Below are positions 22,360 through 50,476 of a DNA stretch of 64,000 nt, piece after piece. The stretch comes from Branchiostoma floridae (taxonomy: Eukaryota; Chordata; Leptocardii; Amphioxiformes; Branchiostomatidae): assembly GCF_000003815.2 (NCBI RefSeq), contig NC_049980.1, positions 20,651,239 to 20,715,238 of the forward strand. Direction: 5' to 3'. The position numbers and the translations under genes were made by a program. How positions within the stretch are numbered: the first letter of the stretch is position 1; each line of letters begins with the position of its first letter. The notes beneath the pieces were generated by a model that worked only from the letters and a program-made list of their open reading frames with translations, ran no database searches and was not told the origin of the DNA.

Positions 22360-25300
22360 ATGGTAAGTTTTATCAGTCTAAGGTGAAGTATATACACCAT
22401 ACATCATGTTTGTGCTGTAGAAGCTAGTGTAGTTTTATTACAATGTGTTTTTGAGTGTTGTCACGAACGTGCACATGTGCGCACATGTGGGGAGGGGGGC
22501 AGCGCAGTGACGCTTGCGTGGCTTAGCGAAAGTCAGTTTTGGAAAGTTCTTCGTTTCAAATTTTCTTGGCCAAGCAAATTCTAGAAACCTATGTAAGGAT
22601 TTTTACACCACCATAGGATTAGGTACTGGATCGGAGACTGGTGTGCCGGGTGCATCTAAGTGCATCTATATTTTAAAGGGACCCTATTCTCCAAGCAGAT
22701 GTTGGGGTAGAAGATCGTAATGTTTTTAGGCTGCCGGGGTACACACACACTAACACTTCCAAGCGTGCTTCGCAGCCAGAAAATATTACGATCTTCCATC
22801 TAAACTTTGTCTCGTTGTTCGCGGATGATACAAAAATCTATGCTGCTACCCAAAAATGCGAACAAAGTGCGCATACATCTTGCCTGCAGGCAGACTTGAA
22901 CAGCCTACAAGAGTGGTCCGTAAAGATGCAGATGCGATTTCATCCCGACAAATGCAAGGTTATGCATCTAGGGAAGGCCAATCCCCAGCACAAGTACACA
23001 ATGAACAAAGTAGATGGAACTAAGCACATGCTGGAGAGTACAGACGAAGAAAAGGACTTGGGGGTCACTATTGACAAAAATCTGAAGTTCAGCAACATGT
23101 GCAAGTGCAAGCGAACAAGGCGAACAGAGTTCTTGGTCTGATCAAGCACAACCTTTGCACATATTGAAAGAGAATCCTTTTTACTTCTGTACAAGAGCCT
23201 AGTGCGACCGCACCTAGAATATGCAACAACAATATGGTCCCCCAAGACCAAGAGAGACAGAGACACAGTGGAAAGAGTGCAAAGACGAGCCACAAAACTG
23301 GTGAAAAGTATATCCCATCTCACGTATCCAGAAAGGCTAAAAGCGCTGGAGTTACCCACATTACACTTCAGAAGACAGAGATCTGACATAATCCAGCTGT
23401 TTAAGATTACACACGGGCTTGACACAGTTAGAGTGAATAACCACTGCAACCTATGCGGGAGAGCCATGTTTACACCAAGCTTGGCATCAAACACACGAGG
23501 GCACCAGTATAAGTATCAAATCCAAAAAGCTACGGGCCCGAGGGCACACTTCTTTCCCACACGAGTTACCCCAGCATGGAATAAACTCTCACAGAGCACA
23601 GTGAATAGCAAGTCAGTGAAAGAGTTCAAGACAAGACTGGGGCAGGAATGGGGACTGCACCCAGACAGACATGAGTACCACTTCTCTTACTGACGCTACC
23701 ACCGCCACAACTAGGACAGCCCTATTACCCGCAAGGGTATCGACTGGCTGTGGTTCAAGGTAAAGATTCAAGGTAAAGATCCCAATATCTGCTTGGAGAT
23801 TACAAAAAGTCGAATCCACATTGCAAAATGTGAAATATGTTTTTTGTCATGAAGTCCCTATAAGTGAGTATAACCAACTAAAATTAAATTGGTAACAATA
23901 GGGTCTTCATGACCAAAAATGACATATTTCGTTATGGCCATGTGTCTGTGTTTATAAACATTGTCTTGTATTCCTGCCCTGAACAGCCTCAGAACGAGCA
24001 TATAGAACTGCACAGGAAGAGACATGGGTACCGACTGGATTACCATGAAAGAAAGTAAGTCACATCAAAGTTTTACTGATCATGTATTGGAAACTGTCTT
24101 GTAATTGAACTTTTAAGGTAGTTTGCTACACTGGACTCTAGGCTACCTGTACAGCATCATATTTATCCTGCAGAAACTCAGAAAGTGTTACCTGTTCTTG
24201 TCAGATGAATAACATATGTTCAAATGTGTCATTGTAGTAATTGTACATTACTATAAAGGTCATTCATTGTACTTGGATATGTATTTTGTCAATGGCCATT
24301 AGCCAATGTAACATACTATAACATTGACTGTTACTTAGTTTAAGTTACTATTTACTAATGATTTAGACATTGCTTGCATTGATTGATGATTCCAATATTT
24401 TTTTGCAGACGCAAAAAAGAAGCTCGGAGGCCTCATGAGATGGCAGAGAAGGCCAAGAAACTCAAAGGACTCAAGTAAGGAAAAACACTTGACTTGTGTA
24501 GTTTTATAATTATGATTTTATGATATGTTCTTACTTGGCTTTAAGTTTTCATGTTTGCATTATTATACTGTTCAACTTTTGACAACAGGAATCATATTCT
24601 CCCATACTATATTACTGTATTAGAATGGTCAATAACAGATGTAGCCTTGAATATATTGTACATATACTTAAGTGTTTACTATTATTATCATTATTGGTAT
24701 GACTTGTTTCATGGGTTTCTAAGGAATAGATTAAGTGATGATTACATTTCCCCAGGGCAAAACTGTACAACAAGAAGAGACATGCTGAGAAGGTACAGAT
24801 GAAGAAAACGTAAGTTGCTTCTATTTGAGCTAACAGATTGGGGAAATTAATTGGAGAAACATAGTTAAAAGTATATTCAATAAGTACGGAAGCTTCACAT
24901 TTCTCTAGTCTCTAGGATTTCTCGTACAGACTCTTGGCATCTTCATTAGTCTTTTGAGGCAAGAGAGTAACCTATGCCACAGCTGGTTATTGAACTTAAC
25001 TATTGAGAAAAGGTCACTGACACATTAAAAAATGGATGCAAAAAGTCTTAAAGTCTTGTGTTTGCCAATTACACTAAATCTATCATCATTAGCAAGCGTT
25101 AGTATTCTCTGTAACATTTGCTAAAAGTATGTCCCTTTGGGAAAATTACTTAAAGCAGGTACATAATTGCCTTTCAGGTTGAAGATGCATGAAGAGAGGA
25201 AGACAAAAGAGCGTAAGGATGACAAGGTTCCCCAGGGAGCTGTCCCTGCATACCTGCTGGACCGGGAGGGTCAGTCTCGTGCCAAGGTTCTCTCCAACAT

Positions 25301-30129: not shown

Positions 30130-33100
30130 CTACCACTGGTTGCTTTTTCGACCATTCTTTCTACCATTCTGAAAAACAAAAAGGCAAATTCAATTCCATA
30201 GGTCAACAGGAGTCAAGTGTGGATCTGTATGTATTTGTAAAAACAACAACACGAGAGTGATGAAGGGTACACATTGTTATAGATATATTCTGACAGGATG
30301 CTGTAATCCAAGAAATAGAAATAGCCTTGAATTACAGTAATGTATTAATAAAATAGAGGAGTTGCCATAGAATACAAAAGACCAATGGGTCAGTCTACAT
30401 TGCTCTATATACAAATGAAGTAAAACCAGCCGTAACAGGTTATCCCCAACTCATCCGGGAAAATGCTGGCCAAATGCAGAATGCCCTGGCTGAAATGCAA
30501 ACCACAATGCAGAGTAGCCTACATTTACATGTAAAAGAAAGATGATTACTCACCTTCTGTACACTTCTGCCATTAACGCCGGGGCAGTCAGACCTTATGT
30601 GTCCCTTCTTCCCACAGCGGAAGCATCCCTCTCTGTTGTTATTTGGTCCACTGCGCCTGGGATGTGCACCGGTACCGTTCCTGCCGGGTGGTCGGGGTTC
30701 CACAGCAGGCTGCCTCCTTGTGTCAGCTGACTGCATCCTGAAACAGCACATACCTACAACATCATTGAGGATCATACTGCTGTTATCAACAGGCTTATCT
30801 AATTGTTTTTCAAGCCAAACAAAAAAATCGTAATTTTTGGAGTTGAGCAATGGTGAAGACATGTATTTCAGGAATCATGCACAAAACTGCTGCTAGACTA
30901 CAAACAAAACATAGCACTGGAAATATTTCTAGACTTTTCACTACTTCTGATAGTGTGAAAATAAATGATATTTGGAACAGCCATATTAATACTGTACTTA
31001 ATCCTTTTTGCTAGGATTCTATTTCATTGTAGGAGTGGCAAGGACGTTTTAAGTTCCCTGTCAAATCAAAACAGTACTTTAGTGCAGGACATTTAATTAT
31101 GCAAATTTGCAGTGTCATGATTTTGAAGAGAGGTGCCGGGAAAATAAAACAAATGCAAACATTTGAAGATAAACAGTACAGTGGACAACTTACAGATAGC
31201 CCTGTGTGTTAGGAGGGCCAGGTTGAGCTGGTTCCTGCTGACTGCCCAAGTCTGCCCTCTGAGACAGTGGGTCCTCCCCCTCCACCCAGTCATCCTCATC
31301 AAACACACTGGGCACAGACTGGACCGACCGTGCTGGGGAGCTGCACCCACTCACAGACCTGCTGTCAGCTCCTGTTTCATCTACAGGCCACACATGGGGA
31401 AAAAAGAAAGAAGCCTAAAGCATACAATGAGTGAACAATGCCATGCATGTATGGTCACAGTATACGCTGTTGCGCAAGAAGAATATAATTAAATGTATTT
31501 TTTTGTGTGCAGCCAAAGGGATGAATTTTTAAGTCAAAATTTTACTTTTTATTACTGTACAGCTTCTTACACAAGATAAAGTGGAAACAGAATGGGTCTA
31601 TCAGGTAGCAAGACACCAAAAACTATGGACTGAGGCCTTTATTGTAACGTCTGGTTTGGGCCTGAACTCTTTAGATTTTCATATCCTGTATATTTATAGG
31701 TTTGTGTGTGCGTGCGTGCATGCATTTCCCTTACCAGTTGCTGTTGTGATGCCACTTCCGTCACTTGTCCCTTCAGCCAAATGCTTATCATCAGGCTCCT
31801 GTATGAAAATTTGTAGTGTGGAAGGTAACAGAGACTTTCACGGCACAAAGAGCAAACGATAAGCAGCTGGCAATCTTCCATAAAAAAGACCGATGCAGTT
31901 ATTGATAAGTTCAATCAAGCACGTTGGTTGTTTATTGACATGTTCACTCATCCAGGTTGGTTTAAGGTTGTACCTCCTGCTGTGTCTTGTCTGTCTTGCC
32001 GTCAGTCCAGTCATCAATGGCATCATCCCAGTCTTCTGATGACCCTGATGTCATAGCCTTGTTCTCAGCTATCATCTAGCAAGTAACAAACCACATACAT
32101 GTACATTGTACAATCTGTACTACAATTTGCAGAATGTGTGCACTACTTATCAATACTTATGCCTGCACTCAATATTGCTGCAGGCATAAGTATTGATAAG
32201 TAGTGCACACATTCCAGTACAAGCGTGTAAAAGCATTGCAGTTGAACCAGTACTAGTAACCATGACAAAAGGATCACTGGTCCATTGTGACCATTTTTGG
32301 TGGTCCCCATTGATCAAAGCATTATGTTTCAAGAATGCTGTCAACATTCCACTCAATTTGTTTTTATTTCCTTCAAGTCCCTTGAGTGCTCACTACATAC
32401 AGGTTTGGCTGTAAACTAAAACTCGAACCATTTTCAGGTGTACAGTTCTATCTTCTGTAATCTGTCCCAGAAAATGACACAACCAGACCTGTGAACCTTC
32501 ACCCACAGTTGATAGATCCCTGGGGCAGGGGGTTCCCAAAGGGCACGTTTGTTGCCTTTCCTTTTCAGGGAGCTGCAGTTGCTTGTGTTGCTGACTCTTG
32601 GTCGGATTCTGCTGTTGTCTCTGTTGCCAGCCGTGTCTCAGGTGAGGTGGGATGTACTGTTTCTGTGCAGGCCTTCGCTCCATGTGCTGCTGGTCACTCC
32701 TACTTGGCTTCTCTTGGCGAGGATAAGGATGGGGTCGTTGCTCTTTATGTGCCTGTGGAACTAGATGCTCTCTTGTTCCCTGCTCCCTCTGGTTCCAAAA
32801 GGGGACTTCATGTACTTGAAAAGTTAGAGGATGTGGGCCAAGCAAACCCATCAGATGCCTTGGACACCATGCCTGATCCCCAGAAGCTCGTCTTTGCTGC
32901 CCAGGGAAAGCGCTTTCCAGATATCCCTGTGGTCCTGGAGGTGCTGACTTGGACCTCATCTTGGGAGATCATAGAATGTGATTCAGGTTTTCTTTCATTA
33001 GTCACTATATGTATGTTACAAGAATGGAACAATTGGTCTGTCATGAAGCATGCAATCGTTTGGAAAATGTAATGTACTACCTATTTTGGAAAATACATTA

Positions 33101-36100
33101 CACCTTACAGTTGAAAGGAATGATAAAGAGATGGCAAACCGGCTCCATGTTGGCGGCCCCCAGGTGTGCAGGTGTGTCGCGGGGAGGTGAGGAGTGGAAC
33201 TGGCCGTGCTGGAAACCTGGGACGTGGAGCAATCGCGTGGTGCTGCCGCGGCCGTGCTGGTTATACACACAGCTGTCCAAACGATCTGTTCAGGAGACAC
33301 ACAAACACATACATGGACATCTCATGGTGATCAGGTTTGCCTGAACAGTACACTTGGTCATGTCCAAATTTTTCAGAACCATACACACTGACATGATTAT
33401 GTACACATGTAGATAGATCCACACAAATTATTTTTCATCCATTTCCAAAAAAGAAAATGTACTATTTGTGAACGTACTGTTAAAGTACGAGCAGACACAT
33501 TCATACCTTCATGAGGTTTCGTCACAAAAATAATATTCCTATCCTATCAACATTCTCTCTGTTGAATAGCCTTTCCGCACAAATCTAGATTGGTTATAGA
33601 GCTAGGCAGCAGGGGGAGGGTGTTTCTTTTGTCTTACAACAAGCAGTATTCAAACTTAAGTGAAAAACCTGAGTGTTAGTACCTGCACCAGGCATTACAG
33701 CAGGCATGCTTCTTTGTACAACACTTATCAAGCTGCCAGGATCTGCTGTCAGGGGAAGGCCTGCAAAGTTACTCAGAAACACATAAGCTTGCAGCGCTGA
33801 GCTTCACAACTTTGACAACTGTGTAACTGGAGGATGAGATTCTAGAATAAAAACCGACTACACAAATGTATAACTGGAGGATGACATTCTGAAATAAAAA
33901 CCTAACACTTACCTGGCTCATGTTTTGTAAAGTCCTCAAGGCATAAAAGGATGCTTGATGTATGAGGCTATCTAGATATTCTACACTGGTAATAAACTCA
34001 GATGGGAGGGGGGATATGGTCATGGTTGGGACCAAATCCTTTCCGCAATGCCACCATGCAACTAGTAGCATCCATTCAGGATCCAAGGAAGGTACATGTT
34101 GCCAATGAATCTTATTTACCTTTGACTAACATTGATTCACCTGATCAAGCTATCTGCAGAACATTTGTGTAACTTGGGTGAAAGAACAATAACATGCTTG
34201 ACAATTTCTCCTGTCTTTACCTTTCTGAGTTTGGGCCACTTGTTGGTTGATGGTAAGCTCAACACCATCTAATTCCCATAAACGTACAGTACGTTCTCCA
34301 GAAGGGAGAACACAGGTCTAGAAATGAAGAGAAAATAACACCTTCATCAGTTAAGAAAATAGTAACAGCTACTAATAATATACATACAGCTTACATGAAA
34401 ATAATACCTGATCAAAACAAAAATAGAATTTTTCTAAAGTCAAAAGGGTGACCTTTGAATGACGAAAGAAAATTGTTCTGTTAATTTCCATTATGACTTT
34501 GAAAGTTTGACACAGGACACTATAATCTACCAAACGAATAAAAGTGGAATCTATACAGGGCTCGAAATACCACCTGCATATGCAGGTTAGTGCAGGTAAA
34601 ATTGGAGCTGTGCAGGTATTTGTGATGTCCACCTGCACCTAACCTGCACTGGTCCATGTACTGGGTTTTACACATAAATGTCCTATGATGTATATGGATG
34701 TGTATGTGGATTGTTATTAGCATTGACTGTTACCACCTATAAAGTATAAAAGTAAAAAAGCAATGGTTCCTGAACAATTTTTTAGTATGATCAGGATTCC
34801 TAAATTCAGAGTGGTGCAGGTAAAATCTGTCTGGTGCAGGTAATCTTAAATGTTACCTGCACCAGTGCAGGAGTGCAGAAAAAAGTGTTTCGAGCCCTGT
34901 ATAACAGATACCGCGTATACAGTACATATACTTATCTCTCTGATACATACAGGTAACTGACAAGAGTCAATATAGCTAATATCAATTTTCAAAAAAACAA
35001 ATGATACAATATTCATCAACCTTTAATACTTGTTTTAACGGTTAAGTATTAAAGGTTGATAAATATTGTAAATACATAAGATGAACATGTAACGTCCTTG
35101 ATACAAGTAAACTGGCAAGCAGCACCATGCACAACTCACCACCTGACTCCAGAGTGTCCTCCCATTGGCTGTGAGTTTGTTGAACAGTTCCACCTGTTTC
35201 TCACTCAGGTCTGTATTCACTCCAGCAAGGAAATTCTTTTGCACCTGGAAAAAAACTCATGCTCATCTACCAACTACTTTCTTGGGACATATGCTAAAAC
35301 ATCATTAACAGTTTACGGAATAGAAAGCAAGGTGAGTAACACATTTCTGGTAGCATATTGTCATTATAAAATATGCATTTTTTAGAAGTTCATTTCAGGG
35401 CATCTTCATCATCATCATCGGTCGATGTGCTTACACACGACGGGGTTATACCGCTCCTTTACGGGGTGACATGCCCTTTCGAATAGCTGACTACAAGACG
35501 GGGATGCACCAGGTCTCCTGTCCGGGTGAATGATGTTAATCACCGTATGGCTGATATGAGACAAAAGTTTGCCAGGTCTCCATCTGGGTGATTTGTAGTG
35601 AATCACCAACTCCAGACAGAAGGATTTGCACCAACGTACACCGCACCATCACACGTGTGGGGGTTCCTCAACTCTCTTCATTTCAGGGCTCAAGAGTTAA
35701 ATGCATTTGATACAATCATTCTTTTGAATGAATAATTTATCTATTGTTACCTGGAAATCTATGCGTTGGTACTTGTTTGGAAGAGGCTTGATGTCGACAT
35801 AAGCTATCTCCTCTGCTTTGCCCAGATCCACAAAGCGCACAAGGGCCTGTGTGATAGACAGACGGGGAACAACTTATGTCTGTTTTTCAAATGCCAAATT
35901 ACTGAAAACTGTGCACACATTTCTTACATGAATATCAAATGGAGAGGAAAACAGTGAATAGTATCAGTGAGAAAAAACAGAACTGCTATTGGAGTGAAAA
36001 CGTACTGTCTTGTTGAACTTCTTCTCAATCTCCCCTCTGTACCACATGTTTTCCTTAGCAGACACGGCACACACAAGGAGCCCCAAGATGCAGCTGTCTG

Positions 36101-39100
36101 CTCCCATCACTGCCTCTAGAAGTGGTGCTTCAGCTCTGAAATAGCACAGTGTTCAAGATGATATTGTTTTTATACACTCAGCATAATCTACATGAAAATA
36201 TCATTAACTTAACTATTATAAACACCAAGTGGAGAATCCAAAATATTGCACATTCCCTTAGAATAGAAGAAGGATTAGATGCTGAACAATTCCCATGCCT
36301 ATGCTTACCTCATTTCATCCATCATGAGTTTATACTCGTTGTCCTCCACAGGAATGTTCTTTGTCCAGAAGGACCCATCTGGCTCCATAGGATGTGTCAC
36401 ACATGCCTTCATATTTGGACCTGAAACAATTATGTCAGTTCAATATGTAATAAAATATTAATTCACATAATGTACTGTACATTGTATACAAAGTCTGCAT
36501 GTAATCCTGATTTCTTGTTCCTGACCTTTTCTACTTTCAAGCAAAAAGTTCTCTATCTAAGTTGCAACTTCATCCTTTCAATGTAGCCTTCCATTCCACT
36601 ACATGAATGGATCATCTTTTAAAAAAAACTATGCCAGAATTTACATCAATTTTCCTATATGGATGCATGTTTTGGTGTTTAAACATAGTTATGTATTCTA
36701 CATTTTGGATATGCTTACCTGTCACAAAGCCCTCCTGTAGATCTTCCATCCCCTTGAGGCTTCCAACCTGTTCAAGACTCCCAGTTTCCATACTTGAGGG
36801 CCTGTCAGGTGGATTCTCCTGATGATGACTAGGATGACTGGAAGTGCCTGTGCCTGGGTGATCACCTGCTGTATGCAGCTCACTGCTTATCTCAGATAAC
36901 CTTCCTGGGGTATCTGTGTTCTGATCTAAGGTATTGGCTGCGTCATTGACACTGTCGGCTGCAAACATTTCACACAAGCTAGGGTTTGATTCTCTGCCTT
37001 CAGTACCAAGCCTACTCTTTTCCTCCTCTCCGGAGCTTCCAACACTGCATGTAGCCATGCAACCATCCTGGAGTTTGGCACCCTCTTCTAACACATTTTC
37101 TCCAGGCTTGCCCGAAGTATCAGTAATGTGGTGCACATTTGCATATGTATGATCTACTGGCATGTCTGTCATCAAAGCAGCACACTTCCCAGAACTACTG
37201 CACTTTTCGGATTCCTCCCCAGGTAAGCCTTTCCCTGAGTCATCTTCAGCACAACCAGCTGATCCATTTGTTGAAACCGAAGAGTTGTCAGGATCGCCTT
37301 CAGCCAGGTTCATAAGGTTGTCTAGAAGTGGGGAGGCATACTCATCAGAAGTTTGGGAAAGCTCATCAGATAGGACCTCTCCTTCAATTACAACATCCCC
37401 TGTTAATGACACCAGTGCAGCTTGCTCTGGGGGGTTCTGATGTCCATTCTGTAAACTTCCATTTGTTGGACATGGCTGAGGATATGGGTGGGCTTCTTCT
37501 GCTGAAGATGCTGTGACAGTGGGAAAAGCTGAGTTTACAGTCTCTATTGGACATGCTTCTGTGGCTACAATTTCATACAATGGGGACATGGCTGCTGATG
37601 TAGAGTCAGGTTTTGTTGACGTGTTTGATCTTTCCAATGTCACAAATGTTGGGTTGGCGAATGTGGAGAGGCTTTCTGTTTGTTTGTTGTCAGCTAACGC
37701 AATTACAGGCTGATTAGCTACTCCCAACACGGAGTTACACGGAATGCAAAATTCTTCAAGCTCGTTGTCTGCACTGTCCTCCCCTGAAGAAATACCTCCT
37801 GAAGCTGGGTTGCTTCTGGGTCTTTCCATGATATCGCTTGCATCCACAGCAGACAGAGATGTAGTTGTTGTTACAGCATCTGATGGTGGAATAATGGTGC
37901 TTTCTGTCGTATATGTCCCCTCTTTTGTCTGGTCTGCTTCCTCACTTCTACTCTCTGTTGAAGGTGCAGAGGCAGGTAAATAATCTGCCTGTTCTCTATC
38001 TACAGTACCATCTGGGTACAGTTTATCTGATGACACCATACAGGACTCCTGGTCAACTGGTGCTGTTGAATCCATGGCATTGTTGGTACTGCTCCTGATA
38101 ACTTCCTCATAAGGTGCAGAGGCACATGCCATGGCCCTGTCCTTGGTGCTGAACCCATCAGAGTGACTATCTCCATTGGAAACACTGGAACAGGCATCAG
38201 ACGTCTGCTGAAAGCCATGACAAGCGGTGAGTTCTGACATGAGCAATGCATCAAAGTCCTGCAAACCAGACACTGTCTTAGATCCATTCATTGTAGTTGG
38301 AGGGATCACAGCACCCATGTTGTCACCCCTTTCTGGGTATGGTTCAACTTGCCCATCACAAGTTGCTACAATACCTTCCAAGTATGGATAGCTGTTTCCT
38401 TGCCAGGTTGGGGGTAGGTCCCCAGCTATTGGAACAAAGTGGTGAGGACCTGGACGGTTCATGATGGAGTACCCCTCTGGTGGGGCTGGAGCAATGGGTA
38501 TTCCTGGTGGTGGGTACATGGTGCGTGGGGGCTGGGGGTCTGGTGGTGGGTACATGGTGCGGGGGGGCTGGGGGCCCTGTGGTGGGTACATGGTACGTGG
38601 GGGCTGGGGGCCCAGTGGTGGGTACATGGTGCGTGGGGGCTGAGGCTCTGGTGGTGGGTACATGGTGCTTGGGGGCTGAGGGCATGGAATCCTGGGGAAT
38701 GGTTGCACATGTTCGGCACCTTGCTGGGTGTGCCTCAGTTTTTCCCACCACAAGGGCAGACCTGTGTACTGTCCACATTGACTCCTTTCAGTTGTGGCCA
38801 TGTGGCTAAAGCTAGACAATCTGTTGTCTTCCCTTGTAGATTGATGAAACTGATTGTGAGCAGCTGAGAATGTAGGCCTTGCATCTGCACCCTTCTCTTC
38901 ACTACTGAAGGCTGTATCTGGTGCAGACTCTGAGGACATGGACCTCACACTCTCCAATGTGGGTTGAAGAGGGACGTAAGTTTCTCCTCTTGCCAAGATC
39001 CTGGGTATAGTACCTGGGAACACGCCTGAAACTGGCTTGTTGGAAACCAAGGACTCAGCTGTGTCTGCTCCCTGTGTTACGCCCTCTTTCAGTGGCAGTC

Positions 39101-42100
39101 CAGGTCTTGTGGCTGACAGTACCTTTCCATCATGGGCCTCATCACAGGTTCTGACATCTTTGTCAAAGTCACTGACTGTTACTGCCTCTGACGTGTCCTG
39201 CACGGAGGTCAGATTTAAGAGGATGTTTCCGTCCTCAGTCTCTGAAGGAGTCTTCATTTCAACTTGTGGGGGCAAACTTGTAGAAGCTGATACAGCTTCC
39301 TCACCAGTACATTCGATCATAACATGATTGCTACCATCCACAGGAGCCTTGAAAGAAGAAATATGAACAAGCACATTTAACTGTCTGGTTCCAAACTGAA
39401 GGTTTTCAATGAACAAAGACACTAAACTCAACCCCTTTATATAACCATTAGATCAGATTATATTCACTCCTTCAAACTTACATGTAACAAGCCAAAAACA
39501 TTTCCCTCTGGAAGTTCTTTTCTTCAGTCCTGCAATATTTTCTTAATTCCAAGAATCAAATCAAAATGATATGGCCATATTCGTTGATTTCAAATTCAAC
39601 AACTCCACATCTGACAGACTGGTACTACAGAATATACCTTTACTTGGCTGTCACCCCTGTCCGGTTCTGGTGATGGACCTTTGTCTGCTGCGTTGGTCCG
39701 GATGACTGTCAGTGATCCAGGAACAAAGTCTTCTGCATTATGTTTCAGTCTGATGTCCCGACAAGAGACTTTCTACAAGTTTAAGATACAGGGGAAGGCT
39801 TGTGTGGTGGTATACATGACAAAGCTACCTTATTACACTGTTCCAGACAAATGTATTGAACTGAATGGACAAAACAAATAATGTACTGCACAAGAGAGTT
39901 TGTTTTACCAATACCATTTCTTCAACCAACTAAAGGAGAAAAAAATTGCCAGTTTCTAAATTGCACAGATGGCTATATTCCATACCTCTGCCTTTGTTCC
40001 CTCTTCTTTCACTGTTGGGTGAATAAGAGGAAAATGGCTGTTACTAGTAACACCAACAGCAGGGACTCAACAATTCATAGCTGTAAGTTCGATAAATGTC
40101 TTTATGTCATACCTGTGACGCGAAAACGTTCGATACGGGTGTTCCGGACCGGGTGATAACTTTCCGTATGGCACGGGCTCTACATTGTATCACACGGACT
40201 CCATTCGAATAAATCAAACTATTTCGAGCGGGACGAGTGTGGCGCCGTCGAAAATTCGAATACGTGATTCGGACGTTAGAACATTACTGTTGTAACTCTT
40301 CTTGTTCGAGGGCACCAAATTTGTTCAACTTCTGGCGCATTTCACATCAAAACATGAGTTTTTTCAGGTGGGTATGACATAAATAAAATACAACAAAGTG
40401 TATTCCGGATCACCCTCGGTCCCAGCCCTCCCACAGGTCGGATCACCCTCCAGCCTTCGGCCGATCCTTCCCAGGGTCGGGCTGGTACCTCGGGTGAAAT
40501 GGAATACACCGTGTTGTATTTCATATTACTTTCAAGTACACATTATTACTTGCTCAATAGTGTATGTATTTTGAGTGATTAAAACATTCTCCCAGGCAAA
40601 GGTGTTGAACATCAAAGGTGTACTGCTCAAACAATTTATGTTCTAACCCTTCTGATGGAATCTGACCCTTTCAGAAGTTATTCTGAGCATAAAAACAATT
40701 TGCACAGACCTGATACCACATTCAAACATTTCAAAAGTATAAAAACTTGCAAACTTCATGATCGTGTGCTACTTACAGCTGTGTTATGAATAGGATAGGC
40801 ATAATTTGCTCCTGATTGGTATTTACAAATCTGATATTTCTGTACCTGCAGTAATGATTCTCTCAGCTATGTTCACACCCCCTTCCACATCTTGTAGGTC
40901 CACCTTCCACAAGGTAATCGGCATGTCTGTTTTAATCTGCAAGAGGATGCCAATTGCTTCATTCTAAATCAACATCTGTATATAATCGTGGTACATGTAC
41001 AGGGCTCGTGACTGCGACTAGATTTGGTCGCATAGCGCCTAAATTTTTAGGAAAGCGACTAGAATAGAAATCTTGGTCGCACGGTGCGACTATAAAAATA
41101 CAAGCAAAAATTTATGCCTGCGCATATGTAATGGTTGCCGAACCTTGGCAGAACCAAGGAGGTTAAAACCTCAAAGCCGACTCTGAAGAAAACAAAGCCT
41201 TACGTCTACTGGTTGCCTGAACCCGCCCCGCTGGCTTTAATTTAAATATTACAGTCGGAAAAACAAGGCCCCGCCCCATCCCTGCTAGCACGTGCCACTT
41301 GCTATGGCTGTTCCTAACAAATTGCAGCAAATTACCCCCTATTTCTGGTTTGTTGTGTAACCGGAGACACTCTTGGAACAATTAAAATCTTTCAGTTTTA
41401 AGCATTCACAAGCATGGCTTTGTTGAAAAGATTAATAGAATTGTCCTCTATCCACAATTTCACTTGTTCTAATTCAATTTAAGTCCGTAAAAAAACTGCA
41501 ATTTATTTGAGGGACACTTCAGGAATATATCATCCACACCTTCTGAAATACATCTTCTGAAATACATCGGTAAATATGCTAAATGTAACAGCCGGCTGTT
41601 CCAAAAAATGTGCATCAGAAACTGTAGCCAATCCCCCAGTTTCTGGCCGCTGGCCCTTTGTTGTGAAACTTGAGACACCCTTGGAACAATTAAAATCTTT
41701 CAGTTTTAAGCCTTCACAAGCATGGCAAGAATATTAGAATTGTCCTCTCCCACAATTTCACTTGTTCTAATTCAATTTAACTCCGTAAAAAAACTGCAAT
41801 TTATTGGAGGAACCTATATCGTCCACACCTTCTGTAAACATGGGTAAAGATGCTAAATGTAACAGCCAGGCCACCCCCTTTGAAGGTTCCTGGAAGGTTC
41901 ACAGGCATCTCAAATTTCATAGGCACACAGGCGGCATGGGTCTCTCAAAGCAAAGAAGGAGGGGGCGTGGCTATGTTTCTAGCACTACTAGATCAGCTCA
42001 CTAGATGCTTTAGGGGAAACTTTTTTTTATTATGTCACATCTTGGCAACTGTTTTGATAATTAACATGGCCAGTTTACAATTTTACCTATCTAAATAATA

Positions 42101-45100
42101 TATTTCAGTGTTTCAAATGCAAAACTTTTTTTTTTCTCAGTTGAAAAGCGCTGTTTTCCTTACTTTATCAAAGTTAACTATTGTGAACACACCCGGGTCT
42201 GGCCTGCCCCTTCCATCCTCCCCGCTAACAAATTTGCATACTACTATGTGAGGTGAGTGACCCGCTGGAGCAGCCAAACAGGGGGCTATTTTCTGTTGAC
42301 TTTAATGCCGTATTTTACGTAAAATACCAGGACTCTAACTTATGTAATTTTGTTATTTTCTTACATAATAACTATATGAAAGTAGCCTTTGCAAAATTGT
42401 ATTCTAGAAGGTGATTATCGCTTGCATTCCGCTTGTTTTGTTGGTCGCCGGGAAAACACTATCTACAAATGCTGTACATGTAAATTGTTGCGTTTTCCGA
42501 CTCATATTTTTTTCCATCAACATTTATTTTATCTAATATCAACAATTTGACAAGGTCAAATTCTTTTTTTAACAGAATTGTGTCTTTGTCTTTTGCATTG
42601 TACACGGATACTTTATTCCAGGTTAATAAGAACATAGATCAATAAGAGTACTGAGTAATACTTGGTATGGCAAAAAGACTTTTGCTTGTGCTCCCAACCT
42701 TTTATAGTGGTGCGCCTAGATTCTAGCTGATGCGACCAAGTTTTAGGAGTTAGGAGCACAGCGCTCCTAGGTCAAAAAGTTAGTCTGGAGCCCTGATGTA
42801 CAATTATGCCATGTTCCAAAATGTCAGGGTTTTGGTCTATCTCTAGAGGCAATACTGTATACAAAGAGGCTTAGCAGAACATCTACAAACGTGAGACTGC
42901 AAGATAACAACATTGATTACTGCAAATCATATGACGAACAATTTGAAATCAACATCGAGAACAATAAGTGTTGACGTATATGCATTTGAGGTCCATGTTG
43001 AATGTTGCATACCTCTCTCTCAAAAGTACATGTGATCTCCTTGTGTGATGACAGGTCCGAGAAGAGCCATCGGGCCTCTCTAGGAATCTCTTCTGTCTCG
43101 TCCTCGAAGAAAGTGCACGCCACAGCCTGAAATGGTGAAGTAAATTCACTAAAAGCCCAGTACGTTTTCAACATATATGATACATTCTATTCAACAACAG
43201 GGGTAACAAAAATTAAAAATATCAGAGGAGGGGGAGTTACTTTCTTGCACCCTCATCTTATGGAAGTATTATTTTCAGTATGTACTTGGCAAAAGTAGAG
43301 CTCTAACCTGAAATGGCAGTTGTGGCAGGGTTGGTGGCAGCTCTGCCAGGTCGGCTAAAGGGACGGTCTCCACGGTACCGTAGTCAAGAAGGCGTACAAG
43401 TGCTTTATCCTGGGATTTCATTGACATAGACAATATAATCATCAGAACACTGAAGCACTCGTGGTGGTACACAAACACATATACATAGGAGTTGACGCAT
43501 TGACACCATTCAAGTTTAGTGAAATTAGTGTATAAGTCAGTATTATTAGTACGTCATTAGGAAAATAAAAAAAAAAATTAAAATGCACTTATCACAAAAT
43601 GCAATTTTGTAATCTGTAGCAAACAATGAATTGATATAACAAGACTGGGTTAGCCTAACAGAAGTCCTGCCAAGCTTAGTTAGACCACCCCACCTTCTTA
43701 AGTTCTTCCACAAGTCCACGATACCACATCATGTCCCCTGGATGTCTAACAGCACACACTGAGCCCTCGCCCCCCATCCAGTCTCCAAGGGCCCCAAGCA
43801 CACCAGCTCTCCTAACATCGCAATAAAGCAAACCTTATCTCAGACAACGGCATAGTAAAACAGCTCATCCACTCACTCAGACACCTTCATACACAGCAAC
43901 TTCTGGCAGCACTACATCAGCCTGGATTTTGGACACATTCGAAAACGAACCAGCAGCATTCAGGTGTTTTGGGTTTTACAGGTTCAGGAAAATAAGAAAG
44001 CAAAGTAGACGAGAGTTGACAGCCATTTTAACCAAGTTTCTACATTCAAACGTGGTCTAAAACAGAGGCAGTTATTGTTGTTTACATGAGGATAGGAATT
44101 TAAAACGCCAGTGGACGTTGGATATTGCAACAAGTAGAATTGCTAGTAGGGAAATGGACCATTGTTTTGATTATCACCCTTTCACAAGTTTTCACAAATA
44201 ATTAGGTCCAGATTTAGGTACGGGCCAGTACCTGATCGTCTGGACCTGGACAATAACGTCCACTTTAATTTTTGTACCGTTACCCACCCGTAGATGAGAT
44301 GCTTTATTCAATTCTTTAAGCATAGCAGTACATATTTGACAAAGATAAAACACAAATGGCTCTTTACCTCAGTGCATGGTGCAAATGTTCTATTACCTGA
44401 TGTGAAGAGACAACGCTGACAGAACCTCCCGGGTCGGTACATCCAGTTCCTGTCGAATGTAGATGATGCCCTTGGCAGACATCCTGCTCTCCACAAAGAC
44501 TGATTGCTGTGTTCCAGTCTCGATTTGTTGACAGCTTCCAACATTTATCTCAGCTTGGATACACAAATAAAAAACATCATTATGCAAACTTGGAAGCAAG
44601 TATCTCAAGATGAGACAAGGAGGGTGTTAAGAAGTTCATTTTGAAAAAAAATAAAAAAAATAACCACAGAGTAACCTCAACACCACATAGAGCAAAACAA
44701 TGACCAAAGGCTTTTATATTTTTAGAAAACTAACTTTTGAGTATTTCTACAGCACTGCAGAGAACTCACCTAGGTCATCAGGTGGTGCAGGTATAGCTGT
44801 GAGCTGCCAGTCACTTATGGCAGTTAGGACTGAGCTGACATCACACATCAGATGGATGCGAATGTCTGGGAACTTTGTCTCCAAGTCTGCCAGTAGGGGA
44901 ATTTCCAGCTAAAAACAAACCATCAAAATACATTTTATACAGGACGACAATATATGTTTATTTGTAACATTAATACAGCAGTCATCATGTCCTGAGCGTT
45001 TCAAGTGGTTTGTTTTACAATAACATAATACTAATATCTCTACCAGAATCATGTATCAATCGTTCCTCTGACGGTCTGACCTTCTGAAGTATTGCAAATA

Positions 45101-48100
45101 ACAATGTGTCTGCATCATACATGTATCACTTTGGTCTCTTTTCTGGGAATTAATGAGAACTGTAGTTCAACCTTTTCCTGGAACTGTGCTACTTTCTCTG
45201 TCTTGTCCTGAAGGCTGTCATCGGGGTTTCCAAGAATTTCATCAGCTTCTTTACACAGCTGTAAATAAGAATGGAACAAGATCATACAGTTGTATGTCAC
45301 CATCTGTATATCCAAATCATATTGTATGTTGGAGCCCATGGATTATATGCTACAGCCCCGTTATGAGACATAGCCTTGTCCACACCACCTTTCTATGTGA
45401 GTTTCTGTTAAATCCTACTCAATTTTACTCAGAAAATGTCTACATTTTGTATAGATACCACCGGTGCGTATACTGTGATGCCTTCTTACTATCAGAAAAT
45501 TGAGGGCATTTGGGGGACTGTCATTGATGCATCTTGCACAAAACAGAATTTATTTTGCATATCCTTGTTGATTGTCATTGAATCCCAGGGCTCAAAATAC
45601 GTTTTTCTGCAGGTAACACTGAAAATTACCTGCACCAGACAAATTTTACCTGCACCACTCTGAATGTAGGAAGTATGGATTATACTTAATAGCTGATAAC
45701 AGTCAATGCAGCTAATAGCTATCCACATACACCTACATCATATGATATTCATGTAAAAATTCCAGTACATGAACCAGTGCAGGTTAGGTGCAGGTAGACA
45801 CCAGAAATACCTGCACAGCTCCAATTTTACCTGCACTTACCTGCATATGTAGGTGGTATTTCGGGCCCTGAATCCTATAGCAAATAAACTGCTTTTGTTT
45901 TAGTATTACTCACAGTCTGATGTTGCATCATCACATTCCTACACAGCTCCTCACACTCTGCCAGCAGGCCAGTCTTCTCCTCTGATACCTGCTGCACCTG
46001 GCCTAACAAATCTTCAGCCTGAGACTTGATCTTCTGCTGCAACTTAGTTGCCACCTCCTTGATATGGGACTGGTGTATCTGGGAACTGTGTAAAACATTT
46101 GTCTTTTGTTGTAATATACATGTCTAAGTCATCATATATGGACTATAGAACATCTCAAGTACATGTAGTAGTGGTCATTTTCCTGTATCTTTAGCTACTT
46201 AGTTGTTGTAACAACTGTGTTGATACATCATATTATGTTACGGTGTTGAAGTACAATAATGAATTTTCAGAAAGCCCTAAAAAATTTTTTGACATGTTTC
46301 GAAAAGCTAACTTCTAATGCCTTTTAAAAATACGAGGAGATTTTGGAAACATTCCAACACACAAAATATAACAAATTGCAAAATGACTTTGAATTGTTGC
46401 CATACATCATATCCTGTACAATTGTCAAGCAATGAAGTTCATTTATTCATTCATTAACCCAGTCATTCCATTAACCCAGTCAGTCTCTATGGTACAGTTA
46501 GAGCTGTGTACCTAAAGAAATTTTAGGTACAGGTACAGGGGTTTAGGTTCAGGTCCAGACCTTTACCTGTACCTAAGCAAGTTTGATCAATCATCTGTAA
46601 ATTATAAATGTAGCCAACTGTCTTTTTCAGTGAGAAGTTGACATCATTATATGAGGATTTAGATATTTGAACCTCAAAACAAAGTTTTCTTAATTTTCAA
46701 CTGCAAGATGATCAAATTGTCATTTTTGATTTGGGAATGTACTTATTGTTAGTCTCAAAAAGTGGTGTTCAACAGTGATTTAGTTTGTTTAGGTACAGGT
46801 ACAGGTACATAGAAGTTTAGGTCCGGACCTGTATCTACACAATTTTATAGGTACGGTACAGGTACGGATATTTAGGTGCACAGCCCTAGGTACAGTATAT
46901 AACCTAAGCACAATGAGTTATTTTACTCACTACTTAAGAAGGTCCCTCTTTGAGTTGCACACCTCTTCAAGTCTTCTCTTCAACTCACTTGATTTACTGA
47001 AAGATCAAGGAATAGAACTGAATAAGCCAAGTTTCCCTCTCTACATAACTCACCAAAAGTCTTTCATCCACAAAATAGTCTCACAAACTAGGGCTTGAAA
47101 TTACATCTGGAACCTGCACTTTCAGAAAAGCTTTGGAAATTGAAGAGGAAAAAATGCAACATTTCTAGGCTAAAGAAAGAGTACAAGCTTGTCCTTATGA
47201 TTATGAATCCTTTGTTTCAGAAATCAGGAAAGTAATCAAAGTTTAAGTAAAAAGGTCTCAAGTGTACCTCTTGAAGGTATCCAGACTGGAACAGAAGTCC
47301 CGAATTTCCTGAGGAGAATTAAAATATTGGGTTATTGACTCACTGCCTCTGGAAACCACTCTAAATTTTTCAACCATTACAACTAATCAGCAAAAGGCAA
47401 ATATGGAATAAATTGACGTTGACCATTTTTATCTTGTTAGGCCACGTTGATTTGATTATATGGATGACATCTGCGCTCGACCACACAGTAAATTGTGCAA
47501 AGCAGCTGTAAAATGAGCACAAATATTCCGTAGATTGAAAAAAAAGTATAAGAAAACAGATAACTAATGCCATAAATAGAATGCCAAAATGAATTTAAAG
47601 TCAAAGAATAAGATGTGAAAGGACGGAAAGAAAAAAAAATCTATTGTTGGTTGGGAGAGGTACCAGTACAGAAAATTCAGGTCCAGAGTATCATGGTATA
47701 CCACACTATGTGTGTTTAGTCCTATGTTCAACCTTCCTGGCCACTTTGATTTCATACTGAAGGCAACTTTTTTTTTTGGCCAAACTTTTTTTTTATTCGC
47801 TCGCTCGCATCAGTTTTGGAGTTCCCGGAGGATGTCATCCATATAATCAAATCAACATGGCCTTACCAGCCTATACCTACCTGTCCAGCTGCCTTTTCCA
47901 CCTTGTGTGATGAGAACCTTCCTCTGTGGATTGCATGGTGGCAGTCTTCACACAGCAGTAAGATGTCAGACTCATCTGTAAAACAGGACTAATTCATAAT
48001 TCAGGGAAAATTTTGAAATCTAGACCCTCTTAAAGTTAAACGCTATTTCCTGTATTTTGAGGTGCAAATTTTGCTGGTAGACTTTAATGGTTCATGACAT

Positions 48101-50476
48101 ATCTATTTTTGGGGGGTGGAGGGTGCGGCCACATATATTTTGGAGGATGATCACCCCTCCTGTGTCATTGAACCGATTTTCGTCTTGGCAGCATGACATA
48201 ATGTTCCACACAAGCTACACTATGTTGTATCAAATGGACACAGAAAAGAAACAATAAGTTTAGGACAACAAAACTTTATTACGTATCAACGTCTTACATT
48301 GAATATACACAGAAGTCAACATTGGTCTCATACTGAAAATAATGAGGAATTACACACCCTACTATAAGACAGAACGAGCTATACACTATTTTGTGTCTTT
48401 CACTCTTTGCTCCCTTGTTTTCCCCAGAAACTTTCTCCGGTAACTTTGCAAAAATGTGATCAAAATTCATCAACCCAAGCCTTCCCAACAGTTGCTGTGT
48501 CACTGCCATTAATTACATATTCAATAAAATCTAATTCGCACTTAGCACTAGGGCTGGGTACCAGTACAGAAAATTCAGGTCCAGGTCCGGTTCAGGTCCA
48601 GGTCCGGACCTGAACCTGATTCAGTATGACTCGTACCAATGGTCCATTTCACTACAAAGTGTGTAAACATGTGTGAACATGTGTGTATGGCGGCTTTGAA
48701 GAGGTGACCTTTGACACCTGTTTTGCCATACCCTCCATTGTCATCGTATATGGAGAATCCTAATAAATAAAGAAAGAAAGAAATCTGTTTGGTGCAGTAT
48801 TAGACTTACACTGGTGTTTTAAAATCCTACAACGCTAACTGCACCTGTAGGATTGGCTGTAAAACTTGGTAGAAATTACTATAAACTCTACTCTACTTCA
48901 CTCTTGTTATTTTCTTCCACCTGCAAACACCAAAATGTGTGAATGTCTGATAAATAAATCTGTTAATTTTCTAACCAGTCCAACGTCCGGTCCACCTAAT
49001 TTTTTTTAGGTCCGTTTTTTCTGGTCCGGTCCAATAAGAAAAAACGGTTTTGTACCGGTATGCTGTACCGATAGCCAGCCCTACTTAGCGCACATCTTGC
49101 AATTTGCATGATTTGCACATTATTGGTCGATTTTCTGTGACACAGCTTGGACAGGCATTGTTATTGGTGGATATCTAAAGTCTCCTTTTTTGTGGGAAAA
49201 TACATGTAATTTGGATTGCAACTTGGAAATGTTTTCAAAATTACAGAAAGCCTGATAAGAATAGGAGTATTTCAGATTTTTTTTTCTTTTCTTTGGCAGC
49301 AATAACTGACTATCCTGACTTAATTCTTGAAAAGTTTTAACTTCTGTCTTTACTTTACGGGCTGATATCTGTCTGTCAAAAGTAATAGAATGGGGAAATT
49401 TTTGTCCGTCCTGAGCAGCAAAATTATGTCAGAGGATGGAAGGAATGACACTGGCTAGAACTTCAGTAGAAGAAGAACACTGAAAGATGCAAAAAATGGA
49501 AGTTCCACTGCAGTACCAAGTTAACACACCTGGAGGCCCAAAGTTGACCTTGACCTTTCCAGTTCCCAACCAAAACCGACCATAACCAAGAAGGCTGCTG
49601 AACATTGCCATAGGCAGTCCCGAACAGCACCAAGTTGTGTTGTCCAATATCATGGCATTGCTGTCTCAGAAACGGGAGACAAAGGTCAAAGCTTTGGGCA
49701 GTTTTGCTAGTTTTTAATACAATTCTTAAAATTTCTTTATCATGGGGATGAAGTTTCGAGTGTCTATAAATAGTTTAAAATATCATTCAGCTGCATTTTT
49801 CTCTGCACCTCTGACTCTGGCTTTGCTTCTGTCCTTTCTCCTTACTCTAGATTCGAAACAGCTGTTTACATGTCAATGGGAACACCAACCACACAGGGCT
49901 CTTGTCTTGCTAAGTTGCTTTACAGTCCCTAGGGACTTGGGTTGCCTTGAAAACAAGAGACTTGTTCAAAATAACTAAACAAAAGTCCATATTTGACAAC
50001 TTCTCGACTTATTGTCTTCAGGAACAGACCTACTGACAGCGACGCAAAGTTAGTAAACGTCCTTGACATATGGCGCATGTGCCCACATGCCTAAAGTATG
50101 CCTTGGTTGTATGTCGACTGTGGGACCTTGGTGGGACAAAACTGTCTATCATTGTCACAAATAACATAACATATTCAAACATTTCACATGTAGGTTCGAA
50201 AAAGGAAAGGACTGACACAAGACTGGTTAAGTAACCCAGTTTATATTACAATACAGGGCCGGATGAAAGTTTGTCAAGTCTGTCAAAATCTAAAACTAAA
50301 AGATGGCAGCAAAATCTGCCATGAGACCGTGGGCATCAAGAACAGGCGATATAAAACTCCTCTTATTCCTAACGTCTGGCTCCAAAAATACATTCCTAAC
50401 CTTTTCCACAGTCCTTACACTGGTGGGCGTGCTGTTTCTCTTGACAAATGTCACAATTTTTCACCGCTTCCATCAT
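30130..50476 (-). CDS. B-box / coiled-coil / Tudor-domain / zinc-knuckle protein (RNF17/Qin-like?)
   Basis: About 27 coding exons, roughly 1,940 residues. Exons 5' to 3': 50401-50476, 47881-47975, 47268-47308, 46931-46996, 45914-46085, 45172-45258, 44770-44908, 44397-44553, 43694-43811, 43308-43409, 43013-43126, 40846-40936, 39638-39768, 36719-39347, 36309-36420, 36006-36135, 35751-35846, 35140-35244, 34221-34317, 33683-33760, about 33104-33285, 32503-32959, 31974-32068, 31735-31798, 31194-31380, 30554-30737, 30130-30168. Order of domains: B-box (about 8-49), coiled coil (about 58-180), Tudor 1 (about 240-460), disordered region (464-1339), Tudor 2 (about 1340-1490), low-complexity tail, CCHC knuckle. 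Tudor multidomain proteins act in germ granules with Piwi proteins; a B-box with Tudors recalls RNF17/Qin, but no RING is visible. Germline RNA function is inference. The first exon may lie further upstream. The 33104 donor is uncertain (33140 and 33109 are alternatives). Confidence 0.85.
30554..30737 (-). other. CCHC zinc-knuckle exon of the Tudor gene
   Basis: This exon encodes a Pro/Arg/Gly-rich linker (PRPPGRNGTGAHPRRSG) and then CFRCGKKGHIRSDC, a perfect C-X2-C-X4-H-X4-C zinc knuckle of the kind that binds single-stranded RNA. The final exon (30130-30168) adds a basic tail and a Trp before the stop. Confidence 0.93.
31194..32959 (-). other. Disordered tail of the Tudor protein with YIPPHLR and acidic-Trp motifs
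   Basis: Four exons. The first (32503-32959) is rich in Gln, Pro and His and contains QKQYIPPHLRHGW, similar to the YIPPHLR motif near the N terminus of DDX3/Ded1 helicases. The next exons hold acidic tryptophan motifs: SSEDWDDAIDDWTDG in 31974-32068 and VFDEDDWVEGED in 31194-31380. Such short acidic-Trp motifs often serve as docking peptides. The function here is unknown. Confidence 0.8.
32132..32214. repeat. Perfect 36-bp inverted repeat with 11-base loop
   Basis: The left arm (32132-32167, starting gaatgtgtgcactac) and right arm (32179-32214, ending gtagtgcacacattc) are exact reverse complements. They lie 64 bases upstream, on the gene strand, of the acceptor of the exon starting at 32068. 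Confidence 0.97.
34556..34899 (+). mobile_element. CAGGGCTC-type inverted-repeat element, copy A
   Basis: Starts cagggctcgaaa and ends tttcgagccctg, flanked by tata on both sides. The interior has many acctgcac/gtgcaggt words. It is non-coding, intronic in the Tudor gene, and closely related to copy B at 45586-45870 in the opposite orientation. Confidence 0.88.
35008..35067. repeat. Near-perfect 25-bp intronic hairpin
   Basis: Arms caatattcatcaacc... and ...ggttgataaatattg pair with one mismatch around a short loop (gttttaacggtt). It lies in the intron after the exon ending at 35140. Confidence 0.9.
36006..36420 (-). other. Start and core of Tudor domain 2
   Basis: Exons 36309-36420 and 36006-36135, continued by 35751-35846 and 35140-35244, encode an extended Tudor module. 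It opens with PDGSFWTK (the strand before the core), followed by SCILGLLVCAV...MWYRGEI and LVRFVDLGKAEEI. The canonical D-Y-G-N loop reads D-L-G-K here. Confidence 0.85.
36719..39347 (-). other. 2.6-kb single exon coding the disordered middle of the Tudor protein
   Basis: One phase-0-starting exon of 2,629 bases (876 codons plus one base) is rich in Ser, Thr, Glu, Asp and Pro, with no visible folded domain. It is bounded by ctttcaag and gtaagc splice sites and joins in frame on both sides. It separates the two Tudor modules and contains a 12-residue Pro/Met/Tyr repeat. Such long disordered exons are common in granule-forming proteins. Confidence 0.92.
38505..38690 (-). repeat. 36-bp in-frame repeat coding PQPPRTMYPPxx, five copies
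   Basis: gggtacatgg recurs at 38512, 38548, 38584, 38620 and 38656, exactly 36 bp apart. On the gene strand each unit codes PxPPRTMYPPxx with variable last residues (EP, LG, QG, DP). The array lies inside the large disordered exon. Confidence 0.95.
40384..40528. mobile_element. Foldback repeat in a Tudor-gene intron
   Basis: Left arm taaaatacaacaaagtgtattcc and right arm ggaatacaccgtgttgtatttca pair imperfectly. The interior is GC-rich with a repeated cggatcaccctc. It resembles a small foldback or MITE remnant; ends are approximate. Confidence 0.6.
41000..42795. mobile_element. 1.8-kb CAGGGCTC-ended element with 5-bp duplication
   Basis: Ends cagggctc and gagccctg are flanked by atgta on both sides (40995-40999, 42796-42800). 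Words resembling gactagatttggtcgcat recur inverted near the right end. The interior holds a direct duplication (about 41368-41515 and 41676-41810). I see no transposase. It lies in the intron between exons 43013-43126 and 40846-40936. Confidence 0.75.
43013..43811 (-). other. Core of Tudor domain 1
   Basis: Exons 43694-43811, 43308-43409 and 43013-43126 encode SVCAVRHPGDMMWYRGLV, then LVRLLDYGTVETV and QAVACTFFEDE. These are the typical strand order of an extended Tudor module; exons 40846-40936 and 39638-39768 complete the flanking fold. The conserved loop D-Y-G-N reads D-Y-G-T. Confidence 0.88.
45586..45870 (-). mobile_element. CAGGGCTC-type inverted-repeat element, copy B
   Basis: Starts cagggctc, ends gggccctg, with aatcc duplicated on both sides (45581-45585, 45871-45875). 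It is the reverse-orientation relative of copy A at 34556-34899, sharing words such as gcaggtaaaattggagctgt. Confidence 0.88.
46499..46888. mobile_element. hAT-like MITE with exact 8-bp duplication
   Basis: Ends tagagctgtgtacctaaa and tttaggtgcacagcccta are flanked by ggtacagt on both sides (46491-46498, 46889-46896). An 8-bp duplication is the hAT hallmark. The interior is made of aggtacaggtac-type words. It is intronic in the Tudor gene. Confidence 0.9.
47436..47866. mobile_element. 431-bp element with 36-bp terminal inverted repeats
   Basis: Left gttaggccacgttgatttga (47436 on) and right ...tcaaatcaacatggccttac (to 47866) pair over 36 bp with two mismatches. It contains a fragment of the gtaccagtacagaaaattca family also seen at 48549. 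Its right end lies 14 bp from the B-box exon 47881-47975. Confidence 0.85.
47881..50476 (-). other. B-box zinc finger, split across the first two coding exons
   Basis: Exon 50401-50476 (start MMEAVKNCDICQEK) and exon 47881-47975 together code C8-X2-C11, C20-X2-C23, C34-X2-C37, H42 and H49, a complete B-box ligand set. A phase-1 intron of 2.4 kb separates the halves. The ATG at 50476 is preceded in frame by 30 open codons up to a TGA, so a start further upstream by splicing is possible. Confidence 0.85.
48549..49083. mobile_element. hAT-like element TAGGGCTGGGTACC
   Basis: Starts tagggctgggtacc and ends gatagccagcccta. It is flanked by cttagcac (48541-48548) and cttagcgc (49084-49091), an 8-bp duplication with one mismatch. 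The interior has ggtccggacctgaacc repeats. It is non-coding, in the first intron of the Tudor gene. Confidence 0.87.

Follow-up and report, generated by a model that had tools for sequence, protein, structure and literature searches.

A predicted Branchiostoma floridae gene joining a zinc head, two cage-poor extended Tudor domains and a CCHC knuckle

The window analysed here, a 64,000-nucleotide stretch of the Branchiostoma floridae genome (contig NC_049980.1, positions 20,651,239 to 20,715,238), carries on its minus strand a series of open segments that a preliminary description had joined into one Tudor protein of unusual domain order. This raises the question of whether these segments form a single gene and, if so, what kind of Tudor protein it would encode.

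Gene model and integrity of the locus

The gene model comprises 26 coding exons on the minus strand between window positions 50476 and 30130, which join to 5,622 nt encoding 1,873 aa. The only stop is the final codon, and all 25 junctions follow the GT-AG rule, in agreement with the in-frame chain of about 27 exons that had been claimed before. The model was obtained from a small predictor and was then partly built by hand from the sequence; the direct splice between exons 1 and 2, exon 9, and exon 10 in its full length were placed by hand and occurred in no predictor run. Small exons called by the guided predictor between exons 1 and 2, 5 and 6, 8 and 10, 11 and 12, 12 and 13, and 20 and 21 were discarded by hand, because direct in-phase splices unite recognizable domain halves. 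Furthermore, introns harbour short repeats at window positions 34801-34843, 45630-45840, and 48574-48607 whose cores resemble GTGCAGGTA or CAGGTCCGG; these mimic splice sites, and some repeats of this type were called as exons by the predictor.

Negative acceptor scores were found for exons 8, 9, 10, and 14. When codon scores were derived from another Tudor gene in this genome, the chosen frame outperformed both other frames in 24 of the 26 exons, with weak values for exons 3 and 20 and a LOD of 134.9 for exon 15, in which the other frames scored negative. The two exceptions were exon 25 (30554..30737), which contains the zinc knuckle match and in which another frame was preferred, and exon 26 (30130..30168), which supplies the last codons and the stop and combines an unsupportive codon score with a strong acceptor score. 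As judged from the sequence, the chain is coherent and has the appearance of a genuine lancelet gene encoding a large Tudor scaffold.

The region between the two Tudor modules bears on the alternative that two neighbouring genes are present, the first encoding a zinc-head, helix, and Tudor protein of about 430 aa that ends after exon 12, and the second a Tudor and knuckle protein starting at exon 15 or earlier. Reading through past exon 12, with intron 12 retained, leads to a stop within ten codons, and the best two-gene split scored about 6 nats above the single gene under three settings (348.9 vs. 342.8, 321.7 vs. 315.6, and 297.8 vs. 291.8) when split points were tried at 500-base intervals between 45.0 and 36.5 kb and no charge was made for the second gene. 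However, the favoured split, at 43.5-44.0 kb, cuts the first Tudor module in half. The linker is encoded by exon 13 (39986..40011, 26 nt) and exon 14 (39638..39772), the latter not being chosen by the unguided predictor; nevertheless, both bridging exons are in phase, and their codon scores were reached by none of 500 open intron segments, a comparison that is tempered by the exons having been chosen partly for such scores. Moreover, the minus strand contains no polyadenylation-type hexamer (AATAAA or ATTAAA) from 40900 to 36700, whereas the average density in the window predicts about 4.7 for an interval of this length; much of this interval is coding, however. On balance, we regard two separate genes as unlikely and continue with the single chain.

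Several other genes or gene fragments were noticed in the window. A head-to-head neighbour on the plus strand, extending from 51255 to about 58400 and featuring a PDZ exon and a PX-like exon near 58.1-58.4 kb, is presumably an SNX27-like gene. Its start codon lies 778 bases from that of the Tudor gene, and this head-to-head spacing suggests that the two genes share a promoter region. At 10101-10700 (plus strand), an open frame encodes what we take to be a bHLH protein of musculin/TCF21 appearance; open frames at 15591-17714 (minus strand) presumably represent a SIRT6/7-type sirtuin, and a fragment at 22677-23690 (plus strand) resembles, in our assessment, the reverse transcriptase C-terminus of a non-LTR retroelement.

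Zinc head, helical stalk, acidic block, and tail

The N-terminal 57 aa form a cysteine- and histidine-rich head following the pattern C-x2-C-x8-C-x2-C-x10-C-x2-C-x4-H-x6-H, that is, three C-x2-C pairs and two spaced histidines. Its first half (CDIC and CKDC) resides on exon 1 (50401..50476), with the ATG at 50476, and its second half (CEDC and both histidines) on exon 2 (47881..47975), the two being connected by the hand-placed phase 1 junction. The preliminary description had named this head a C6H2 B-box. While the Cys/His pattern is indeed present, the identity as a B-box was borne out only in part: a 477-aa query matched no B-box model in Pfam up to an E-value of 10, and the 57-aa head by itself reached only sub-threshold matches, namely ANCHR-like_BBOX (E 0.028, 15 bits vs. 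a cut-off of 27) and zf-B_box (E 1.2, 9.8 bits vs. a cut-off of 24.1), both over nearly the full length, as well as PHD (0.06, across the first half of the model) and HNH_2 (0.025, across one third). The head thus falls below every Pfam cut-off, and the top match in the solved-structure search was an unrelated zinc ribbon (E 0.012). We consider the head to be B-box-like, and refrain from calling it a B-box. RING models were matched by neither the 477-aa nor the 57-aa query and, since the B-box is likewise sub-threshold, the earlier label of a TRIM-like head was too strong.

The following stalk is encoded by exons 3 (47268..47308), 4 (46963..46996), 5 (45914..46078), and 6 (45121..45258), the last of these possibly featuring a shorter in-frame donor after the QFQEK codons, and exon 7 (44770..44908) provides the link to the first Tudor module. 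An amphipathic period is visible in exon 5, and for residues 58-184 a hydrophobic period of 3.6 was determined that none of 1000 shuffled sequences reached. In place of the helical heptads described previously, a strongly amphipathic helix is indicated, which is probably a coiled coil.

Exon 15 (36719..39347) separates the two Tudor modules by 2,629 nt or 876 codons, open throughout, and an in-frame acceptor slightly upstream, near 39395, may also be usable. Serine, proline, threonine, glutamate, alanine, glycine, and aspartate account for 61% of the residues of this low-complexity acidic block, its net charge amounts to -79, and a 36-bp tandem repeat of 5.1 copies (38503..38687, minus strand) encodes a 12-residue unit of the PPRTMYPP type. 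No Pfam family was detected within exon 15, and a tblastn search for paralogues of the block in 17 genome loci returned nothing better than E 8.9. The length of 876 residues given in the preliminary description was therefore recovered; the disorder ascribed to the block would rest on composition, charge, the in-frame repeat, and the lack of Pfam families, the FoldIndex being near zero at just -0.04.

Downstream of the second Tudor module, exon 21 (32489..32934) encodes a Q/R-rich tail including the sequence YIPPHLR (32656-32636), which to our eye resembles a motif of DDX3-type proteins and for which the solved-structure search gave no match. The tail then becomes acidic in exons 22 (31974..32075) and 23 (31735..31798) and continues in exon 24 (31194..31380); it contains the tryptophan motifs EDWDD (32036-32022), DDWTD (32015-32001), and DDWVE (31294-31280). 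Exon 25 adds a basic stretch and a CCHC zinc knuckle, CFRCGKKGHIRSDC (30584..30625), with the pattern C-x2-C-x4-H-x4-C. The knuckle had been recognized at the end of the chain before, and this assignment holds in Pfam (zf-CCHC, 6.2e-5, 23.4 bits vs. a curated cut-off of 20.8). The HMM search that had been proposed for the predicted protein accordingly recovers two Tudor domains and zf-CCHC above their cut-offs and leaves the B-box below. NCBIfam, a prokaryotic library, yielded no useful match for the protein.

Tudor domains and their methylarginine cages

Both of the previously reported Tudor modules surpass the curated Pfam TUDOR cut-off of 23, with values of 4.7e-15 (56.2 bits) and 1.2e-12 (48.4 bits). 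The first extended Tudor (eTudor 1) covers exons 8 to 12, comprising an N-terminal part assigned by eye (exon 8, 44397..44553), the Pfam-matched core with WYR (exon 9, 43694..43811) and LLDYGT (exon 10, 43308..43409), a C-terminal part (exon 11, 43013..43126), and the end of the module (exon 12, 40846..40936). The second (eTudor 2) consists of its N-terminal part (exon 16, 36309..36420), the Pfam-matched exons with WYR (exon 17, 36006..36135) and FVDLGK (exon 18, 35751..35846), exon 19 (35140..35244), and the end of the module (exon 20, 34221..34317). Model positions 55-118 are covered in Tudor 1 and positions 10-121 in Tudor 2; the flanking exons fit an SN-like extension by eye. Among proteins of solved structure, Tudor-SN and TDRD1 were the best sequence relatives of Tudor 1, and TDRD3 was the best relative of Tudor 2. 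All three are methyl readers, which counts against the methylation-independent role proposed below.

Cage positions were transferred using the spacing of Krimper eTud2 (Tyr624, Tyr630, Tyr646, Tyr649, and Asn651, as given in PMC8249470), which scores five out of five in each of the structures 2wac, 5m9n, and 4b9w. Tudor 1 presents H/W/L/Y/T and Tudor 2 S/W/F/L/K at these positions, so that two out of five residues are kept in each case, the tryptophan of WYR in both, together with a tyrosine in Tudor 1 and a phenylalanine in Tudor 2. Both domains have lost the first aromatic residue, one further aromatic residue, and the conserved asparagine, and neither combines the four cage aromatics and the asparagine of a reader of symmetric dimethylarginine (sDMA). 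Since both cages are degenerate, a bridging of methylarginine ligands, as put forward in the preliminary description, is less likely than first supposed. Weak methylarginine binding by either Tudor is still conceivable, because Trp and Tyr persist in Tudor 1 and Trp and Phe in Tudor 2.

These observations also bear on the reading of the protein as a canonical methylarginine-binding scaffold of the Piwi pathway. The Pfam scores of both Tudors, the retained tryptophans, and the presence of Tudor-SN and TDRD1 among the best solved relatives are in line with it, but the residues missing from both cages render it rather improbable. Another explanation would be that the gene is decaying and that the cage residues were lost under relaxed selection, with the poor codon scores of exons 25 and 26 as a further sign. 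However, no stop or frame break was encountered across the 26 exons, and the codon bias of exon 15 is strong in frame (see the LOD above), which makes decay very unlikely.

Other Tudors of this genome can have degenerate cages as well. Of 25 further cores, 20 keep at least four of the five residues, two keep three, and three keep two. A pattern that misses very diverged Tudors was used to find these cores; they come from mechanically built gene models, nine of the 11 Tudor-bearing regions modelled being represented, and a single locus supplies 15 of them. Non-canonical pockets have been described in other animals. In Krimper eTud1, Asp373, Thr380, and Leu397 replace cage aromatics while Phe400 is kept, and this domain binds unmethylated Ago3 (PMC8249470); in TDRD2, a single cage leucine goes along with a preference for unmethylated arginine (PMC8249470). 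With leucine at the third and tyrosine at the fourth cage site, the predicted pocket of Tudor 1 most resembles that of Krimper eTud1 (Leu397 and Phe400). As a cage leucine accompanies the binding of unmethylated arginine in Krimper eTud1 and TDRD2, Tudor 1 may, by analogy, behave likewise, and Tudor 2 may be devoid of any arginine pocket.

Relationship to known Tudor proteins and proposed role

RNF17/Qin had been named as the protein nearest in spirit, and it does appear to be represented in the lancelet genome, as a separate gene. Another contig (C9) carries three exons of the expected kinds: one for a RING at 4051583 (zf-RING_UBOX, 1.7e-7), one that is Cys-rich and B-box1-like at 4053578 (zf-B_box, E 0.058), and one for a B-box at 4054539 (1.2e-11). 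By 27-30 kb they precede, on its own strand, a gene for which Pfam reports six TUDOR rows. We infer that these exons and the multi-eTudor gene constitute one gene, the expected RNF17/Qin; this RNF17/Qin-like locus spans the regions L029, L026, and L018-L020 (C9:4.05-4.11 Mb). When an approximate stretch of human RNF17 was compared among the modelled Tudor genes of the genome, the C9 model scored 3.7e-41, a multi-Tudor model on contig C2 4.6e-28, and the window gene 7.9e-4. Independently of this comparison, region L009 (C2:24851000-24860999) was seen to hold a single frame that stays open for 3,013 codons and has 13 Pfam TUDOR matches, with more Tudor pieces in L010.

It could be asked whether the window gene is itself the orthologue of RNF17/Qin in the lancelet, or derives from it as an incomplete copy that lost the RING. 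The plans are similar (zinc head, helix, Tudors), and the head shares C-x2-C-x8-C-x2-C with the Cys-rich exon on C9, an alignment equalled by 12 of 1000 shuffles; against the other two C9 exons, 193 and 362 of 1000 shuffles aligned as well. However, the window gene encodes two Tudors, a zinc knuckle, and no RING match, whereas the combination of RING, B-box, and multiple eTudors as well as the best RNF17 match reside on C9. For these reasons, the window gene was considered distinct, and identity with RNF17/Qin was rejected as highly improbable. Genome searches with residues 1-433 and with the part from eTudor 2 to the end revealed no relative outside the Tudors except for one weak CCHC-like match (E 0.118).

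Known systems share parts of this architecture. RNF17 (TDRD4) and Qin (Kumo) likewise place a zinc head before eTudors, and differ from the window protein, in which no RING is matched, the B-box is under cut-off, only two Tudors occur, and an 876-codon insert and a terminal CCHC are present. Qin was described with RING and B-box (PMC7641849) or, elsewhere, with RING and two B-boxes (PMC6550069). B-box fingers also occur in coral eTudor-YTH proteins and were apparently lost from vertebrate RING-eTudor proteins (PMC7641849). By description, the coral proteins resemble the window protein in uniting a B-box or B-box-like finger and eTudors, and differ in their YTH domain and in having several eTudors (PMC7641849). 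Drosophila Krimper, likened here by description and not by sequence, has an N-terminal region that self-interacts and, behind it, a pair of eTudors, of which eTud1 has a non-canonical pocket carrying leucine at the third cage site; the cage of its eTud2 is complete, in contrast to that of Tudor 2, and the available text of PMC8249470 mentions neither a zinc head nor a knuckle, both of which the window protein possesses. Aedes Veneno combines a zinc finger and stretches of low complexity with two Tudors, and just one cage residue is kept in its second Tudor; it differs by its MYND finger and by a first Tudor that reads sDMA on Ago3, and a CCHC is not mentioned in the portion of PMC6411831 available.

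The exact order of the window protein was not found in the literature searched, part of which was accessible as partial text; the earlier statement that no described gene has this order is to that extent uncontradicted, although the union of B-box and eTudor is already in print (PMC7641849). The terms looked for were absent from the main text of a Tudor survey (PMC12147562, GBE 2025). For B. floridae, 15 Tudor gene models, ten of them with ESTs, were reported with their domains drawn in a supplement (PMC3735472), so that the window gene may already be among them.

The interpretation that we favour, with roughly an even chance of being correct, is that the gene encodes a 1,873-aa self-associating, RNA-tethering eTudor scaffold that would bind its partners without classical sDMA reading. 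The order of C6H2 zinc head, amphipathic helix, eTudor, 876-codon block, eTudor, acidic tryptophan-containing tail, and CCHC knuckle could be understood as follows: the zinc head and helix would mediate oligomerization, the long acidic block would space the two Tudors and favour condensate behaviour, and the knuckle, together with the basic tail, would hold RNA. The Tudors themselves would bind unmethylated PIWI tails, or other proteins via non-cage surfaces, in place of sDMA. Judging from the class of protein, the site of action would be germ granules.

A more specific proposal starts from the tail. In the silkworm, W99, D100, and D101 of Gtsf1L contact a second pocket of a Vreteno eTudor (PMC10711660). 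The tryptophan motifs EDWDD, DDWTD, and DDWVE are similar to this W-D-D tail, a short likeness that may be due to chance. If it is meaningful, the protein might be a methylation-independent germ-granule scaffold carrying its own ligands: the tail motifs would cross-link eTudors of the same protein or of others, unmethylated PIWI would bind to the cage-poor Tudors, and RNA to the knuckle; we consider this version a long shot. To our knowledge, no described Tudor protein combines tail tryptophan motifs, cage-poor Tudors, and an RNA knuckle.

In the lancelet, inherited germ plasm is believed to set the germ cells apart (PMC3735472). If the chain of 26 exons is indeed translated as one protein, it would add to the eTudor architectures of chordates one that seems to have dispensed with methylarginine reading while retaining scaffold and RNA-tethering parts, and it would offer a natural test of cage-less eTudor function in a germ-plasm animal.
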